From positions 496,001-560,000 of the forward strand of contig CAIFER010000001.1 in the NCBI GenBank assembly GCA_903789525.1: a stretch of 64,000 nt of DNA, in the 5' to 3' direction. This document shows positions 27,917 through 34,769 of this stretch, piece by piece (within the stretch, counting starts at the first letter, position 1; the number at the start of each line of letters is the position of its first letter). Position numbers and translations under genes: made by a program. The DNA comes from an uncultured Aeriscardovia sp. (GTDB lineage: Bacteria > Actinomycetota > Actinomycetes > Actinomycetales > Bifidobacteriaceae). The notes under the pieces were generated by a model that saw only the letters and a program-made list of their open reading frames with translations, was not told the origin of the DNA and did not search any database.

Positions 27917-27956
27917 AATGTCATATATTCTCATGATTCGCTCGGAAGGATTACGC

Positions 27957-28550
27957 ATGAAAGAGCTGGAGGATCGTATTCGTCGTGACGGAGAGGTCAA
28001 GTCAACTGAAATTCTCAAAGTTGGCTCGTTCCTCAATCATCAGATTGACGTCTCTCTGTTCAATGATATGGGAGCAGAATGGGCTCGCCTTTTTGCTAGT
28101 AAACACATCAACAAAATTCTGACGATCGAAGCCTCCGGAATCGCTATCGCGGCCATTGCAGCTCAGCATTTTGGCAACATTCCAGTCGTCTATGCAAAGA
28201 AGAACCAATCGCGGACGCTCGATAACAGCCAATATGAGACGCAGGTGTACTCGTTTACGAAGCAAAAGTATTACAAGGTCATTGTCTCTACCCGCTATCT
28301 CACCGCGGATGACCACGTGCTCCTCATCGACGACTTCCTCGCGAACGGCAATGCCATGCACGGGTTGATTGACTTGTGCAAGCAAGCTGGAGCACATGTA
28401 GAAGGAATCGGCGTAGCGATTGAAAAGTATTTCGAACCTGGTGGTCGCAAGCTGCGCTCTGAAGGATGGGATCTCCAGTCTCTCGCGTGTGTCAAGTCCA
28501 TGAATCCTCAAACGGGTGACGTCATTTTCGAGGAGAATCCGACTGCCTGA
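27957..28550 (+). CDS. xpt: Xanthine phosphoribosyltransferase
   Basis: Converts xanthine and PRPP to XMP, which GuaA (encoded near 35 kb) turns to GMP. The sequence starts [14 protein letters not shown] and carries the PRPP-binding motif [16 protein letters not shown] near residue 125, together with the YAKKNQSRT segment that is typical of Xpt. Length 197 is standard. ATG 27957 has GGAAGGA seven bases upstream; the frame extends upstream without support. It is 33 bases before a xanthine/uracil-type permease gene, forming a xanthine salvage operon as in Bacillus xpt-pbuX. Confidence 0.96.
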
Positions 28551-28583
28551 ACTGTTACTCACCTGCATCACGAAGAGAAAAGC

Positions 28584-29930
28584 ATGACAAGGATGACAGA
28601 GACGCACACTCCACAGCACACGAATCCACTCACCGAGTTTGACGGCCACATCCGGTTCATCACAGGTCTTCCGTACGGACTCCAGCACGTCCTGGCGATG
28701 TTCGTCGCGAATCTCGCTCCAATATTTCTCGTCACATCCGCAGCTCATATGAACGCTGACCAATCAGCCCAGCTCGTGCAAAGTGCTCTCCTCATGGCAG
28801 GTTTGGGTACTCTCCTCCAGCTGTACCCGATCTGGCGTTTTGGTTCGCGTCTACCAATCGTCACCGGTATTTCATTCACATACGTGGCAGCTATCACAGC
28901 CATCGTTGCCACACACGGTTATGGGACGGCAGTTGGAGCAATCATTATCGGTGGTGTGCTGGAAGCGCTCCTCGGCCTGACTGCTGCGTGGTGGCGTACA
29001 TTCATCCCCACGATCGTGCCTGCCCTCGTCGTCACATCTATTGGTTTGTCGCTTCTCCCTGTTGCAGCGCAAAGTTTCGGTGGAGGCACCAATTCTCATG
29101 ATTTTGGATCGTGGAAGAACATACTGCTTGCTTCCATTACGCTGATTATTTGCATCGCCTTTCAAGTGCTCGCACGCGGATTTGTCAAGCAGCTATCCGT
29201 TCTCGCTGGTCTCATCGGTGGCTATATCCTCGCGCTCTGTCTGCATGCTGTCGATTTCTCGCCCTTCCAGCATTTGACGGTCTTTTCTGTCCCACATTTT
29301 CTTCCTTTCACACCGCGCTTTGACGCTGGCGCAATCGTTTCTCTGTGCGTGCTGTACCTCGTTTCCGCCATTGAAGTAACTGGGGATACGACCGTTCTGG
29401 CACGCGTTGGCTTGAACCGAGATCCAACTAACCGAGAAGTCTCTGGTTCGATTGCTGGCGATGGTGTGATCTCACTCGCCTCTGGACTCTTTGGATGCCT
29501 TCCATTGACGAGTTTTGCTCAGAATATCGGGCTTGTACGCATGACAAAAGTTGTCAATCGCCGCGTTATCGCCTCTGGCGCCGGAATCCTGATCATCTCT
29601 GCCTTCGTACCTGCCATCGCTGCAGCATTCAATTCCATCCCACAAGCTGTGATGGGCGGCTGCACTGTCGTGATGTTTGGCAGTGTCCTCCTCGCCGGTT
29701 TCCAAATGATTGCACAAGCAGGATTTAGTGAACGAAACGTCCTCATCTCCTCATTGAGCTTGACGATGGGCGTTGGTTTCACGCAGGCACCTGCTCTCTT
29801 CGCACACGCGCCGGCTCTCGTTCGCCAAGTCTTTGCCGGAAACCCTGTAGCTGGAGTGTTTATCATTGCACTCGTACTGAGCTTGATTCTTCCGCGATCT
29901 GAGAAAACCTCTCGATCGAAAACGCATTAA
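28584..29930 (+). CDS. pbuX: Xanthine permease, NCS2 family
   Basis: A 448-residue polytopic NCS2 transporter. It opens with GLPYGLQHVLAMFVANLAPIF and has GISFTYVAAI, an SAIEVTGDTTVLA segment in place of the uracil permease AENVGHVKS motif, and CLPLTSFAQNIGLVRMTKVVNR, which together identify the xanthine/urate branch of the family. Pairing with xpt supports xanthine as substrate. About 12-14 membrane helices are evident. The ribosome binding site is GAAGAGAAAAGC before ATG 28584; an internal ATG at 28593 is possible. Confidence 0.92.
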   Translation: MTRMTETHTPQHTNPLTEFDGHIRFITGLPYGLQHVLAMFVANLAPIFLVTSAAHMNADQSAQLVQSALLMAGLGTLLQLYPIWRFGSRLPIVTGISFTYVAAITAIVATHGYGTAVGAIIIGGVLEALLGLTAAWWRTFIPTIVPALVVTSIGLSLLPVAAQSFGGGTNSHDFGSWKNILLASITLIICIAFQVLARGFVKQLSVLAGLIGGYILALCLHAVDFSPFQHLTVFSVPHFLPFTPRFDAGAIVSLCVLYLVSAIEVTGDTTVLARVGLNRDPTNREVSGSIAGDGVISLASGLFGCLPLTSFAQNIGLVRMTKVVNRRVIASGAGILIISAFVPAIAAAFNSIPQAVMGGCTVVMFGSVLLAGFQMIAQAGFSERNVLISSLSLTMGVGFTQAPALFAHAPALVRQVFAGNPVAGVFIIALVLSLILPRSEKTSRSKTH

Positions 29931-29971
29931 CGACTAGTGATAGACGTATCAAACTATTTTGACCTCTAAGG

Positions 29972-30958
29972 ATGAAAATGAAAGCTATTGATGTTTTCAC
30001 GCACATTCTGCCGACTGCGTACCGTCGTGCACTCGACCGCAGTATTCCAAATGTGGGCGGTCGTCATCCATCTTTGCGAGAACCTCTCCTGCAAGATTTT
30101 GATATGAGGCTCGTCGCCAACCCCGTCCAAACATTGCAAGTAACGGCAAGCGTCGTCATCGACGATCAGATTCGAGCGAAGACACAGCCGCGCGTGGCCG
30201 AACAGACGAATGCTGAATTGGCACAAACGGTTCTTGATCATCCTGAGTTGTTCGAAGGCGCAATCGCACGTGTGGCCGCCTCTGACATGAATTGGTCCGC
30301 GCATTATATTGCCGATACGATCGCACGCTCAGATATCCTCTTAGGCGTACAAATGATGACGAAAGAATCAGGTGTTCCTTTGACCGATGCGCACTACGAT
30401 CTGGTGCGCGACGCTCTTTGCCGCAGTCACCGTATCTTGTGGGTCCGTTCCGTCATTGAACATGCACCAGGCAATGCGCATGTTCTTTCCGCCACTCTTG
30501 ACGACATCCGTCAAGTGACCGATTCAATCGCGCACGACCAGTGGACGAGCCGGTTTGCAGGGATGCCGATCATCATTCACATGGGCGTCGCTGCGTTAAG
30601 TAATGCTACAGACACGCAAGCTCGTGAGTATGCTGGGCTATATCTCGACACTGCATGCGCATCATCTGAACAAATTGAACGTGCAGCATCGCTGTTTGGA
30701 GCAGGCCATATTCTCTTTTCCTCCGATGCGCCATTTGGACCGGATCCGCTCAGCATCGAGCAAAATGCGCTTGATGCGATTGACCACACTCATCTCAGTG
30801 ATGAGCAGAAGACAGCAATCAAGCTGAATACATGGGAATCACTGCGGTCGTCAATCCCCATGCACGTGCAAACCGAGAAAGACGCATATCAACTCGATAA
30901 GGCAGAGCAAGCAAAACGCGAAGCGGCAAAAAAGGCTGCCAACAACGATGAAGAATGA
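29972..30958 (+). CDS. Amidohydrolase family 2 (ACMSD-like) protein
   Basis: A 328-residue TIM-barrel metal-dependent hydrolase or decarboxylase-like protein. The start AIDVFTHILPTAYRR matches the opening of the ACMSD/amidohydrolase-2 family, the PIIIHMGVAAL segment has the barrel His, and ILFSSDAPFGPD carries the C-terminal metal-binding Asp. In the usual HxH metal motif the first His is Phe here (FTH), so metal binding may differ. The C-terminal 40 residues are charged (Lys/Ala/Glu). It lies 41 bases after pbuX on the same strand and may share its transcript, but its substrate is unknown. Confidence 0.75.
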   Translation: MKMKAIDVFTHILPTAYRRALDRSIPNVGGRHPSLREPLLQDFDMRLVANPVQTLQVTASVVIDDQIRAKTQPRVAEQTNAELAQTVLDHPELFEGAIARVAASDMNWSAHYIADTIARSDILLGVQMMTKESGVPLTDAHYDLVRDALCRSHRILWVRSVIEHAPGNAHVLSATLDDIRQVTDSIAHDQWTSRFAGMPIIIHMGVAALSNATDTQAREYAGLYLDTACASSEQIERAASLFGAGHILFSSDAPFGPDPLSIEQNALDAIDHTHLSDEQKTAIKLNTWESLRSSIPMHVQTEKDAYQLDKAEQAKREAAKKAANNDEE

Positions 30959-30970
30959 CTTTCCTCACAT

Positions 30971-32299
30971 TTACTTGCCGGTGTGTGTTTCTTTCCACTG
31001 ATCAACAGCCGTCTTCAGCCGATGGAGTGCATCATCGACTTGACGACGCGGGCAAGCGAGTGCCATCCGAATAAAGTCTCCGCCTGCCCCATACGTGGAG
31101 CCAGGTGTCACGATCAAACCTGTCTTCTGACGAATGAAAGCACACAATGCATCTGTTCTGCCAAGCGGATGTGATAGGGCATCGTGCTGATTAACCGTAA
31201 ATCGAGATGCCTGCCCACCAATCGCCTTCCACTCCTCGGATGTAAGTGGGTAACGATCCAAGAGATCAGCGCAATCAATCCATAGTAAATACGTGGCAGC
31301 GAGCTGAACCGGGACAAGCTCCGGAATCGATGTTGCGAGAAAATGCTCGACGTGCTCGACATTCGCTTTCAGATACAGTTTCAGCGCTGAATACCAGTGA
31401 TCTGAGCGCGTATAGGCTGCAATTGTGCCCGGAATCGCCGCCAGATTCGGTTCAGCAATCTCATCCTGATTGAATCCACGAACAGCTTTTTGCCGTAAAC
31501 CTTCGTCAGCAATAATGGCCGTTGCCGCATGCAGCGCCGCTACATTGAACGTTTTCGATGGCGAAACAAGCTCGATGACATTGTGCCGCAACGGATCCGG
31601 CAAAGAAAGAAGTGGAGTGTAGTCTTCCCCTCGCAAAACAAGGTCACCATGGATCTCATCTGAAATGATGGTGACATGATGATTTGCTGCAAGACGGACA
31701 ATACGTGCCAAATCTTCCGGCTCCAACACAAAACCGATCGGGTTGTGAGGATTGCAAACAATCATGAGCGTGGTGAGTGGATCTGCCATCTTCTGCTCAA
31801 GATCAGCCCAATCGATGGCATACGAACGGTGAGCCCGGTCATAGACAAGCGGGGAAGCGAGCGCATGTCGGCCGTTATTAAGTATCGAGTTGAAGAAGAT
31901 GTTGTACACCGGGGTGAGCAGCAGGACGTTGTCCCCCATATTACTGATGTGCCGAACGAGTGAGCTAATTGCCGGCACAACGCCCGTAACAAAGTGCATC
32001 CATGAGCGCGGCGGCTCAAAACCGTGATGACGACTCATCCATCCGGCTACCGCGTTGTAATAGTCGTCGCCTGGCACCTCATAGCCGAAAACTCCTGTTT
32101 TCACCTTGTTTTCCAGAGTATGGATGATTGCCGGTGACGTACGGAAATCCATATCCGCAATCGTCATCGGCAACTCACCAGGCTGGGCTTCCTCATCCCA
32201 CTTATCTGAATCGGTGCCTCGGCGTGAGACCGGCTGATCGAAATACGACGCGTCGCAGGCGACATCGTCGATGTGACTGACAGATTCGTTCTGACTCAT
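30971..32299 (-). CDS. MalY/PatB-type aminotransferase (cystathionine beta-lyase-like)
   Basis: A fold type I pyridoxal-phosphate enzyme. It has the MalY/PatB pattern PMTIADMDFRTSPAI, FGYEVPGDDYYNAV, CNPHNPIG, IISDEIHGDLV and the Schiff-base lysine in VSPSKTFNVAAL. Family members cleave C-S bonds (cystathionine beta-lyase) and some also act as regulators. Length 442. ATG 32299 has GAGGG 11 bases upstream; a GTG at 32317 overlaps the stop of the upstream DUF3737 gene (GTGA), so coupled translation from there is possible. It forms a two-gene operon with the DUF3737 gene, divergent from a TetR regulator. Confidence 0.9.
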   Translation of the reverse strand: MSQNESVSHIDDVACDASYFDQPVSRRGTDSDKWDEEAQPGELPMTIADMDFRTSPAIIHTLENKVKTGVFGYEVPGDDYYNAVAGWMSRHHGFEPPRSWMHFVTGVVPAISSLVRHISNMGDNVLLLTPVYNIFFNSILNNGRHALASPLVYDRAHRSYAIDWADLEQKMADPLTTLMIVCNPHNPIGFVLEPEDLARIVRLAANHHVTIISDEIHGDLVLRGEDYTPLLSLPDPLRHNVIELVSPSKTFNVAALHAATAIIADEGLRQKAVRGFNQDEIAEPNLAAIPGTIAAYTRSDHWYSALKLYLKANVEHVEHFLATSIPELVPVQLAATYLLWIDCADLLDRYPLTSEEWKAIGGQASRFTVNQHDALSHPLGRTDALCAFIRQKTGLIVTPGSTYGAGGDFIRMALACPRRQVDDALHRLKTAVDQWKETHTGK

Positions 32300-32313
32300 C
32301 GTTCGCTGCGCCC

Positions 32314-33315
32314 TCACTCGTTGTATCCAGCGATATGCTCTTGTGACTGATCTGCCGATCGTCCGGCTTGAGCAGTGATACGCTGACCGCCCACAATCAC
32401 AACGGTGTCAGCTGGATTAACCACATTTGGATCACTAATCAATGCACCGACAGCAGGGGCCTCGATGCGCCCCGAAATCGGGTTTTTGATGGAGTCAATC
32501 GGCGTGGTCACCTGTGCGTCAATGTGTGAGCACATCTCAAAAGCAAGATCTGTGCGCAACAGCTTCGTGTTCTTAATAGTGAGGCCGTCAATGTAGCACA
32601 ATCCCTGATCGGATTCGACGATGCAATTTTCGAGCCGAATATTCGAAGAATTCCACGCCAAATATTCGCCATTGATAAACGAATTCTTCACAACCACATT
32701 CGACGTGTTCCAGAACGCGTCCTTTGCCACGATGCGCGAATTCGTTACCGTGATGTTACTGGCACCGTCAAACGCGTAATCACCGATGATGTTGAGATGA
32801 TCGGCAGTGATGTTTTTACTGTTCATCCCAAAGTAAATGCCGTTTGCCTGAACGTGATTGAGAGTAATGTCCTCACAATTCCACAGGGTTTCCTTGGCAT
32901 CAGAGAAGAAGACGTTCGTGAGCGTAATACCTCGCGAGCGGCGGAACAACTTCGTGCCTTGGAGCGAGCAGTCTGACATGGTGAAATTGCGCACGTACCA
33001 CATCCCCGCGTGAGCAATCGTCTCAACGACGGTGTTCTCAACAGTGACATGATCGGCATACCAGAATGGGTATTTCCACTTGAAGACACAATCGCGCACA
33101 TCAACATTGCGCACCTCTTTGAGTGGAGATTCACCCTTCCCGAACGTGCAGTTTTCCACACGCGCATTTTTGATGCCGTAGAGCGGACGTTCACCGGTGA
33201 AATACTTTCCTGAAATGCTCTGAAGATCTTTATCTGACGTTGGAGAGGACGTATTATCTGGCGCTACAGCACGAGAATGTGTTCCACACCACTGCGTCAA
33301 TTCTTGTGAATCCAT
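32314..33315 (-). CDS. DUF3737 beta-helix protein
   Basis: A 333-residue protein built of short repeating strands, each of the form x-N-x-x-(V/I)-x-(N/D)-(C/S) (for example ARVENCTFGKGES, VDVRDCVFKWKYPFW, ITVTNSRIVAKDAFW, IRLENCIVESDQG), spaced about 20-24 residues apart, which predicts a right-handed parallel beta-helix. Recurring FW/YW pairs (PFWYADH, DAFWNTS, YLAWNSS) mark repeat ends. This matches DUF3737, a family of unknown function seen in lactobacilli and bifidobacteria. There is no signal peptide. ATG 33315 has GAAGGA seven bases upstream. The link to a C-S lyase hints at a role in sulfur compound metabolism, which is only an inference. Confidence 0.88.
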   Translation of the reverse strand: MDSQELTQWCGTHSRAVAPDNTSSPTSDKDLQSISGKYFTGERPLYGIKNARVENCTFGKGESPLKEVRNVDVRDCVFKWKYPFWYADHVTVENTVVETIAHAGMWYVRNFTMSDCSLQGTKLFRRSRGITLTNVFFSDAKETLWNCEDITLNHVQANGIYFGMNSKNITADHLNIIGDYAFDGASNITVTNSRIVAKDAFWNTSNVVVKNSFINGEYLAWNSSNIRLENCIVESDQGLCYIDGLTIKNTKLLRTDLAFEMCSHIDAQVTTPIDSIKNPISGRIEAPAVGALISDPNVVNPADTVVIVGGQRITAQAGRSADQSQEHIAGYNE

Positions 33316-33466
33316 TCGGGACTTCCTTCTCTCCTCGCTCGGACACTGCAACTCCTCGTGCAGCCTTCTTACCCCTCGTCTCTTAATATATTGTCACTCA
33401 CACGTATTCAGCGGACAACGAAACGTCGTGCCCTTTCACGTCCGGACTGACCAGGAAGCTAACAGT

Positions 33467-34039
33467 ATGAGCATGAACGAGCATCAACCACGGCGCAAGC
33501 GGCAGATTGAAAAGACGAAAGAGGCGTTTAGCACCGCCCTCCTGTATTTGCTTGCCCGCCAACCACTTGATTCGTTGACAGTGACCGCACTCGTCTCCGC
33601 CTCAGGAATGTCTCGCAAGTCCTTCTACCGCCACTACTCGTCTCTGGCAGACGTCCTCGTGGACGATGCGGTCCGCCTCACCATCCGCATGTCTCAATCG
33701 CTCTCCACTCCAGGCACGCTGTCGATCTCACGGCTATGCGGTTCGATCATCACGTTTTGGACACCGCACACCGACGTGCTCATTGCTCTGCGTGATGCTC
33801 ACCTCATGGCACAATTCCACCGCGAATGGGATCGCTATGCGCTCACGTCCATTCAGCCGCCACTCGTTCGTTCATTTTTCACGGCCGGTACGTTCAGTAT
33901 GCTTTCGCAATGGATCCACCACAACTGCGCTGACGATGCTGACCACATTCGTCATCTGTTCGTTCGCTGTGATCAACCGCATGATGAGTTACCACCTAGT
34001 GAAGATATGCTTGCCAGAAGTAATATCCAGCCTGAATAA
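33467..34039 (+). CDS. TetR/AcrR-family transcriptional regulator
   Basis: A 190-residue regulator. The N-terminal helix-turn-helix region is clear: RRKRQIEKTKEAFSTALLYL, then LTVTALVSASGMSRKSFYRHYSSLADVLVDD. The C-terminal ligand domain is short and not closely like any group I know; it resembles the TetR proteins with a DUF-type C-terminal domain common in Firmicutes. ATG 33467 has AGGAAG eight bases upstream. It diverges from the DUF3737-MalY operon across 151 bases and likely controls it. Its 3' end overlaps the convergent TSUP gene by 44 bases. Confidence 0.88.
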   Translation: MSMNEHQPRRKRQIEKTKEAFSTALLYLLARQPLDSLTVTALVSASGMSRKSFYRHYSSLADVLVDDAVRLTIRMSQSLSTPGTLSISRLCGSIITFWTPHTDVLIALRDAHLMAQFHREWDRYALTSIQPPLVRSFFTAGTFSMLSQWIHHNCADDADHIRHLFVRCDQPHDELPPSEDMLARSNIQPE

Positions 34040-34769
34040 AGGCAAGCACGGCGATAATCCTCCGCATTATTTTCGCAGGAATAAAGCGCAACAAGATTGG
34101 ACCGACATATCCGCCGATAAACATTCCAATAGCCATTGGAATCGCATCAATCCAATAAATCTTCGAGAAAAACGCGTAGATAATGAGCGCAACGAGATTC
34201 GCCATTCCACAAATCACATTGCGAATCGCATTGATCTCGAGAAATGTGCCGCTCACCAAATATGTCAGAATAACGAGAACGACAACACCGCCAGCCGCTC
34301 CAAAGTATGCTTCATAGATTCCCATCGTGACGAGAAGGAGAAGCGCCAGTCCTTTCTGCCACGTTGACAGATGTTTCCGTGTGTTTGTCTGCTGATGCCC
34401 GGAGACGAGAATCATGACACCGGCAAGCGCGATGAAGAACGGAACGATCTTCTCGAACACAGTACCCGGGAATGACAGGAGCAGAATGGATCCGATGACA
34501 GCACCGATGACCGTGCAAAGAGCCAGTTTGCCGACGAGCTTCCATTTGCCATGAAGTTCGCGTGTTGACGAGATCGTGGCTCCGGCACTGTTAAAAATGA
34601 GAGCTACGTCGTTGGTGACGTTAGCAAAGACAGGTGGGATACCCACTGATAGCAAGACAGGATATGAGATCAAGGAAGCGAACGATGCCATCGAGGATGA
34701 CAGTCCTGCAAAGAACCCTCCGACAAGGAGATAGGGCAATAACGCCCATAACGGTAAATGTGCCAGCAC
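33996..34769 (-). CDS. TSUP-family (TauE/SafE) membrane exporter
   Basis: A 257-residue protein with about eight transmembrane helices, typical of the TSUP family. Motifs include FAGLSSSMASFASLISYPVLL near the start, the VTNDVALIFNSAGA segment, and GIYEAYFGAAGGVVVLVIL in the second half, matching the two-repeat fold. Family members move sulfite, sulfonates or other small sulfur-containing acids, usually outward. Next to a C-S lyase cluster, export of a sulfur compound is a reasonable guess. It is convergent with the TetR gene. Confidence 0.85.
   Translation of the reverse strand: MLAHLPLWALLPYLLVGGFFAGLSSSMASFASLISYPVLLSVGIPPVFANVTNDVALIFNSAGATISSTRELHGKWKLVGKLALCTVIGAVIGSILLLSFPGTVFEKIVPFFIALAGVMILVSGHQQTNTRKHLSTWQKGLALLLLVTMGIYEAYFGAAGGVVVLVILTYLVSGTFLEINAIRNVICGMANLVALIIYAFFSKIYWIDAIPMAIGMFIGGYVGPILLRFIPAKIMRRIIAVLAFIQAGYYFWQAYLH

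Follow-up and report, generated by a model that had tools for sequence, protein, structure and literature searches.

A two-gene unit of a predicted DUF3737 beta-helix protein and a PatB-type C-S lyase in an uncultured Aeriscardovia and its wider conservation

The window analysed here is a stretch of 64 kb from an uncultured Aeriscardovia sp. (contig CAIFER010000001.1, positions 496,001 to 560,000). A first-pass annotation had noted four adjoining genes at its positions 30971-34769, coding for a MalY/PatB-type lyase, a DUF3737 protein, a TetR-type regulator and a TSUP exporter, and open reading frames together with profile matches confirmed all four at these places. Two of them belong to a widely conserved two-gene unit, in which a DUF3737 gene of what we call class I is followed by the gene for a PatB-type C-S lyase. 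The DUF3737 gene (32314-33351, minus strand) encodes a protein matching PF12541 with 375.6 bits (cut-off 23.9) over its residues 45-318. The second gene (30971-32317, minus strand) encodes a PatB/MalY-type C-S lyase dependent on pyridoxal 5'-phosphate (PLP), here called PatB, with matches to Aminotran_1_2 (88.4 bits) and TIGR04350 (337.6 bits; curated cut-off 340), the latter in two stretches of which the best covers 1-328 of 384. Start codons were judged by eye. The likely start of DUF3737 is the ATG at 33315 (333 amino acids), preceded by the ribosome-binding-like sequence AGAAGGAAG. The lyase had been described as coupled to DUF3737 by overlap; this overlap of 4 bp requires a GTG start for PatB, and the alternative ATG at 32299 would leave a gap of 14 bp instead. 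The two genes are tightly packed on one strand whichever starts are used, and their pairing is strongly supported by the comparison with other genomes.

DUF3737 was found in 48 of 151 Bifidobacteriaceae genomes, 22 of 246 Lactobacillales genomes, 29 of 296 genomes of a Spirochaetota draw, 5 of 396 Actinomycetota genomes (host included) and, above the family cut-off, 10 of 348 genomes of a Bacillota draw (draw centre included). Proteins scoring at least 240 bits to the window protein were assigned to class I and all others to class II, a boundary of our own choice. Over five genome draws, 55 out of 69 full-length class I genes have a PatB gene downstream in the same orientation at no more than 3 kb, versus 1 out of 34 in class II (odds ratio 130, p 1e-14, a value which overstates independence since the draws partly share ancestry). 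To judge from its position among the Bifidobacteriaceae loci, the single class II gene appears to be the interrupted one of locus L114. This count excludes genome G864 (below the family cut-off), the fragmentary locus L253, the locus in the window itself and the Bacillota centre G546; among DUF3737 fragments, four of seven have a PatB gene downstream. The gaps between the two genes are mostly 0-160 bp. Divided by group, PatB follows 34 of the 43 class I genes in Bifidobacteriaceae, 14 of the 17 in Lactobacillales (20 loci taken from the 22 genomes with a match, with G915 omitted and the centre G549 represented by L079), 6 of the 7 in Spirochaetota (loci with a flank of 1.5 kb only) and the only one in other Actinomycetota; the single class I gene in Bacillota (L148) has a divergent PatB instead. 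At the level of whole genomes, a PatB of at least 264 bits is present in 39 of the 48 DUF3737-positive versus 9 of the 103 DUF3737-negative Bifidobacteriaceae genomes (Fisher p 6e-19), and six of these nine belong to one genus. One Bifidobacteriaceae genome (G150) holds two separate DUF3737-PatB pairs (L105 and L121).

The history of the two genes points in the same direction. For a PatB tree, 114 rows were reduced to 94 by removing sequences more than 93% identical or shorter than 330 amino acids. All 75 DUF3737-linked PatBs fall inside one group of 83 rows, with 8 unlinked ones within it. Its support in the Shimodaira-Hasegawa-like approximate likelihood ratio test (SH-aLRT) is 82, or 94 for 82 of its rows. 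This group spans Actinomycetota, Bacillota, Spirochaetota and Mycoplasmatota, and the other Bifidobacteriaceae PatB paralogues fall outside it together with E. coli MalY, these two sources having supplied all unlinked PatBs in the tree. The trees of DUF3737 and PatB mirror each other, with a Spearman correlation of 0.85 for 72 of the 75 linked rows (DUF3737 frames below 250 amino acids and the long-branched L126 were dropped), compared to a maximum of 0.21 in 1000 permutations. Beyond the genus, both window genes are near to pairs of Lactobacillales (L185, for example) and also to a few Bifidobacteriaceae, which suggests that DUF3737 and PatB move as a unit. We have little doubt that the two form a functional pair.

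The assignment of the window PatB as a C-S lyase is very likely correct, judged by its relatives and its active site. The residues Lys255, Tyr79, Tyr138, Asp220 and His223 are conserved, each in 92 or 93 of the 93 aligned DUF3737-linked PatBs, and have counterparts in E. coli MalY which we take to be Lys233, Tyr61, Tyr121, Asp201 and His204. E. coli MalY belongs to the same fold-type family with matched active-site residues, but is distant (178 bits), and its gene sits in malXY with a phosphotransferase system gene and no DUF3737. Among solved chains, 8y54, 3dzz and 9m0q come closest (341-344 bits). The first of these, LdPatB of Lactobacillus delbrueckii (PDB 8Y54), aligns with 344 bits to residues 29-351 and 389-438; it is a PLP-dependent lyase that, according to the accessible text, was chosen and studied for its alliinase activity (PMC13197776), and no partner gene or operon is mentioned in that text. 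With 448 amino acids the window PatB is 58 residues longer than LdPatB (390). Its residues 352-388 (window 31154-31264) are unmatched there and possibly represent an insertion before the C-terminal part.

PatB of Bacillus subtilis and that of the infant-gut S001-B belong to the same C-S lyase family, and the part of the publication at hand describes the physiological role of this family as not well understood (PMC8480279). In that system, as far as the text extends, PatB shares one operon with homologues of MetC and MetA, without DUF3737. Gut and food bacteria commonly carry PatB lyases, which release sulfide and odorous thiols. A partner co-inherited with one PatB lineage across four phyla offers a handle on the physiological role of PatB. 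In Bifidobacterium longum, MalY1 was raised 9.25-fold in acid adaptation (PMC3517610, consulted in part). As a candidate for a DUF3737-linked enzyme MalY1 was set aside, as no result supported it; its gene number is near leuCD, and the available text of that paper does not mention the gene numbers next to it.

The host genome (G000; 1.44 Mb in 4 contigs, 92.2% complete) is Aeriscardovia-like, and the nearest DUF3737 in a named genome is that of A. aeriphila, with 64% identity. Neither a PALP-family (CysK/CBS-type) enzyme nor MetE nor a MetB/MetC-type enzyme was found in it, with the limit on all these absences that some 8% of its sequence could be missing. The sole match to PF01053 is weak (26.7 bits) and is a class-V aminotransferase by Pfam (415 bits). 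Since these enzymes were not matched, the host probably needs external cysteine and methionine. Without any PALP-family member, the usual threonine synthase and tryptophan synthase beta chain were not seen either. PatB is here probably catabolic or detoxifying, a role which appears to fit better than methionine synthesis because no source of cystathionine is visible in the host. The idea that PatB is an ordinary cystathionine beta-lyase of methionine synthesis with DUF3737 beside it incidentally can hardly be right: PatB can partly complement a loss of MetC, as the portion of PMC8480279 at hand has it, but the lack of MetB/MetC-type, CysK/CBS-type and MetE matches led us to reject that role in this host, and a linkage that crosses phyla is far from incidental.

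DUF3737 is confidently predicted to be a right-handed beta-helix. The AlphaFold2 model has a mean predicted local distance difference test (pLDDT) score of 85.9, and 258 of its 345 residues, forming the core, reach at least 90. In overall fold the model is like the alginate epimerases AlgE4 and AlgE6 and phage tailspikes (Z about 20). Many unrelated beta-helices score alike, therefore the likeness is one of fold only and implies no shared function; for the same reason no single match was accepted as identifying. Conservation along the protein recurs with a period of 19 residues, about one coil (autocorrelation 0.47; permutation maximum 0.27). Charged and aromatic residues are conserved in this rhythm; examples of the residues involved are E54, R55, E74, K78, W97, W118, K134 and R137, followed by E154, W157, K210, D211, W214, W233, Q249 and E272. 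When frames of at least 240 amino acids were compared, thinned to 74 of class I and 11 of class II, 37 positions were common to both classes and 21 were fixed in class I with different residues in class II. The class I group, window included, is fixed to at least 93% at these signature positions, and the window protein carries the signature, departing from it at two of them (G132, T133). The switched positions resemble what would be expected of subfamilies with one scaffold and two ligands. Together the two classes provide a short list of testable residues for an uncharacterised family.

From these observations we favour a catabolic operon of two genes, DUF3737 and PatB, a reading to which we would give an even chance overall. 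In its well supported first step, PatB would split cysteine, or a cysteine S-conjugate taken up from outside, into pyruvate, ammonia and either a thiol or sulfide. In a second step, cytosolic class I DUF3737 would bind or convert the same small molecule as PatB, be it the uncleaved conjugate or the fragment that carries the thiol once cleavage has occurred, at a ribbon of invariant residues, charged and aromatic, that runs along the helix. That DUF3737 acts on the same metabolite as PatB could equally well turn out right or wrong. In operons that lack PatB, class II proteins would carry out a similar kind of chemistry with a different ligand. TetR may control the pair, though in this species alone, and TSUP would be incidental. 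A broader picture, in which class I DUF3737 is a so far unrecognised enzyme or binding protein of the cytosol with a beta-helix fold that shares the sulfur metabolite of PatB, and class II is a sibling of switched ligand in a different operon, is more tentative and rather less likely than not. If true, PF12541 in its entirety would represent small-molecule enzymes of a new kind, built on a fold familiar mainly from proteins that act on polysaccharides. DUF3737 and PF12541 are unnamed in the 5.39 million papers searched; gene-neighbourhood databases, which lay outside this search, may already show the link.

Several points weigh against the catabolic operon. No result indicates a substrate for the pair. 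The fold matches of DUF3737 are hundreds of unrelated beta-helices with at most 15% identity, a solved relative was not found by sequence (best E value 0.47), and the 19-residue period comes partly from the repeat architecture itself. Moreover, PatB is absent downstream of 14 of the 69 class I genes, and five of the nine Bifidobacteriaceae genomes concerned (G061, G065, G087, G093 and G101) lack any PatB of at least 264 bits; therefore DUF3737 can act without PatB. PatB, in turn, persists without DUF3737 in nine Bifidobacteriaceae genomes, and in L114 and L193 a broken DUF3737 stands beside an intact PatB frame. Internal stops were seen in the DUF3737 frames of L114, L193 and also L079, next to apparently open PatB frames, which suggests that DUF3737 can be lost with PatB kept.

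Among the alternatives, the one that survives best takes DUF3737 as a physical partner of PatB, that is a scaffold, stabiliser or inhibitor, and not as a handler of substrate. The fixed gene order, the tight packing and the mirrored trees would all agree with it, and E. coli MalY has been described, in a source available in part, as interacting with the regulator MalT. However, the invariant core of DUF3737 is present also in class II, which is without PatB, and no DUF3737-PatB fusion protein occurs in the loci examined. Furthermore, 18 out of 19 class I genes not followed by PatB retain the signature at 18 or more of 20 positions, the remaining one, L200, at 12 (a few of the 19 are on short contigs, where PatB may be cut off, and L148 has its PatB divergent). 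As these genes keep the class I residues, we infer that the signature favours a ligand over contact with PatB, and we consider a purely physical partnership unlikely. Clearly less probable is that PatB serves mainly as a broad amino acid racemase, with DUF3737 in a D-amino acid pathway. For MalY of Lactobacillus sakei a racemase with beta-lyase activity is reported in the accessible part of PMC5845896, but the closest solved relative of the window enzyme, LdPatB, was studied as a lyase, and no D-amino acid gene is among the annotated neighbours.

Another alternative concerns the neighbouring genes. The TetR-type regulator (33428-34039, plus strand) is divergent from DUF3737 and matches PF00440 with 23.8 bits, and with 24.0 bits from its likelier start, the ATG at 33467, against a cut-off of 24; 151 bp separate this ATG from that of DUF3737. 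The TSUP/TauE-type permease gene (33996-34769, minus strand) lies beside guaA and converges on the TetR gene. It passes the PF01925 cut-off (139.5 bits; cut-off 32.6). The first-pass annotation had proposed that all four genes constitute a system in which TetR controls the breakdown of a sulfur amino acid derivative and TSUP exports the sulfur product. The genes adjoin in the window, and in many Lachnospiraceae a LysE-type exporter lies between DUF3737 and PatB, so that export may be a recurring theme. However, the two other Aeriscardovia species have neither TetR nor TSUP next to the pair. In one of them (L037) a 75% identical TSUP is located beside guaA, 2761 bp from DUF3737 with genes for an aldo-keto reductase and a 2-hydroxyacid dehydrogenase in between, and no TetR was found at this locus. 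The DUF3737 locus of A. aeriphila has no TSUP match and no adjoining TetR, the only TetR of some similarity there sharing 25% identity and lying at a distance of more than 3 kb; a dehydrogenase gene is divergent from DUF3737 instead. No clear TetR operator was detected at the window locus, apart from a single 8-bp palindrome at 33440-33447, and no sigma-70 promoter, where shuffling would give 3.8. We therefore rejected the system of four genes, which appears very improbable: even among Aeriscardovia species neither TetR nor TSUP is a conserved partner, and both seem to be chance neighbours. What is left of the proposal is the pairing of the lyase with DUF3737 and a plausible catabolic role on a sulfur amino acid derivative. 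Likewise, across genomes DUF3737 is usually found without TetR or TSUP, whereas its adjoining to MalY/PatB holds, in class I only.

Regulators and exporters do recur near DUF3737, but they are of changing kind. A TetR gene is directly upstream of DUF3737 in other lineages at L039 (by Pfam) and L068 (same cluster), and LysR genes take this place in several further lineages. In many Lachnospiraceae the order on one strand is DUF3737, LysE-type exporter, cyclophilin-like PF18050 and PatB (e.g. L041:3002-4411). Downstream of the pair in the window, genes for xpt, pbuX and an amidohydrolase (27918-30958) are retained in A. aeriphila (L036:8456-11717).

Class II genes have LysR, S15-type hydrolase, flavin mononucleotide (FMN) reductase, cyclophilin-like PF18050 and glutamine synthetase genes as neighbours, which did not indicate one pathway. 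The PF18050 gene is near 9 of the 34 class II genes (L149, L150, L151, L152, L154, L231, L239, where the match is weak, L248 and L254), and these loci often also contain genes for LysR and an S15-type hydrolase.

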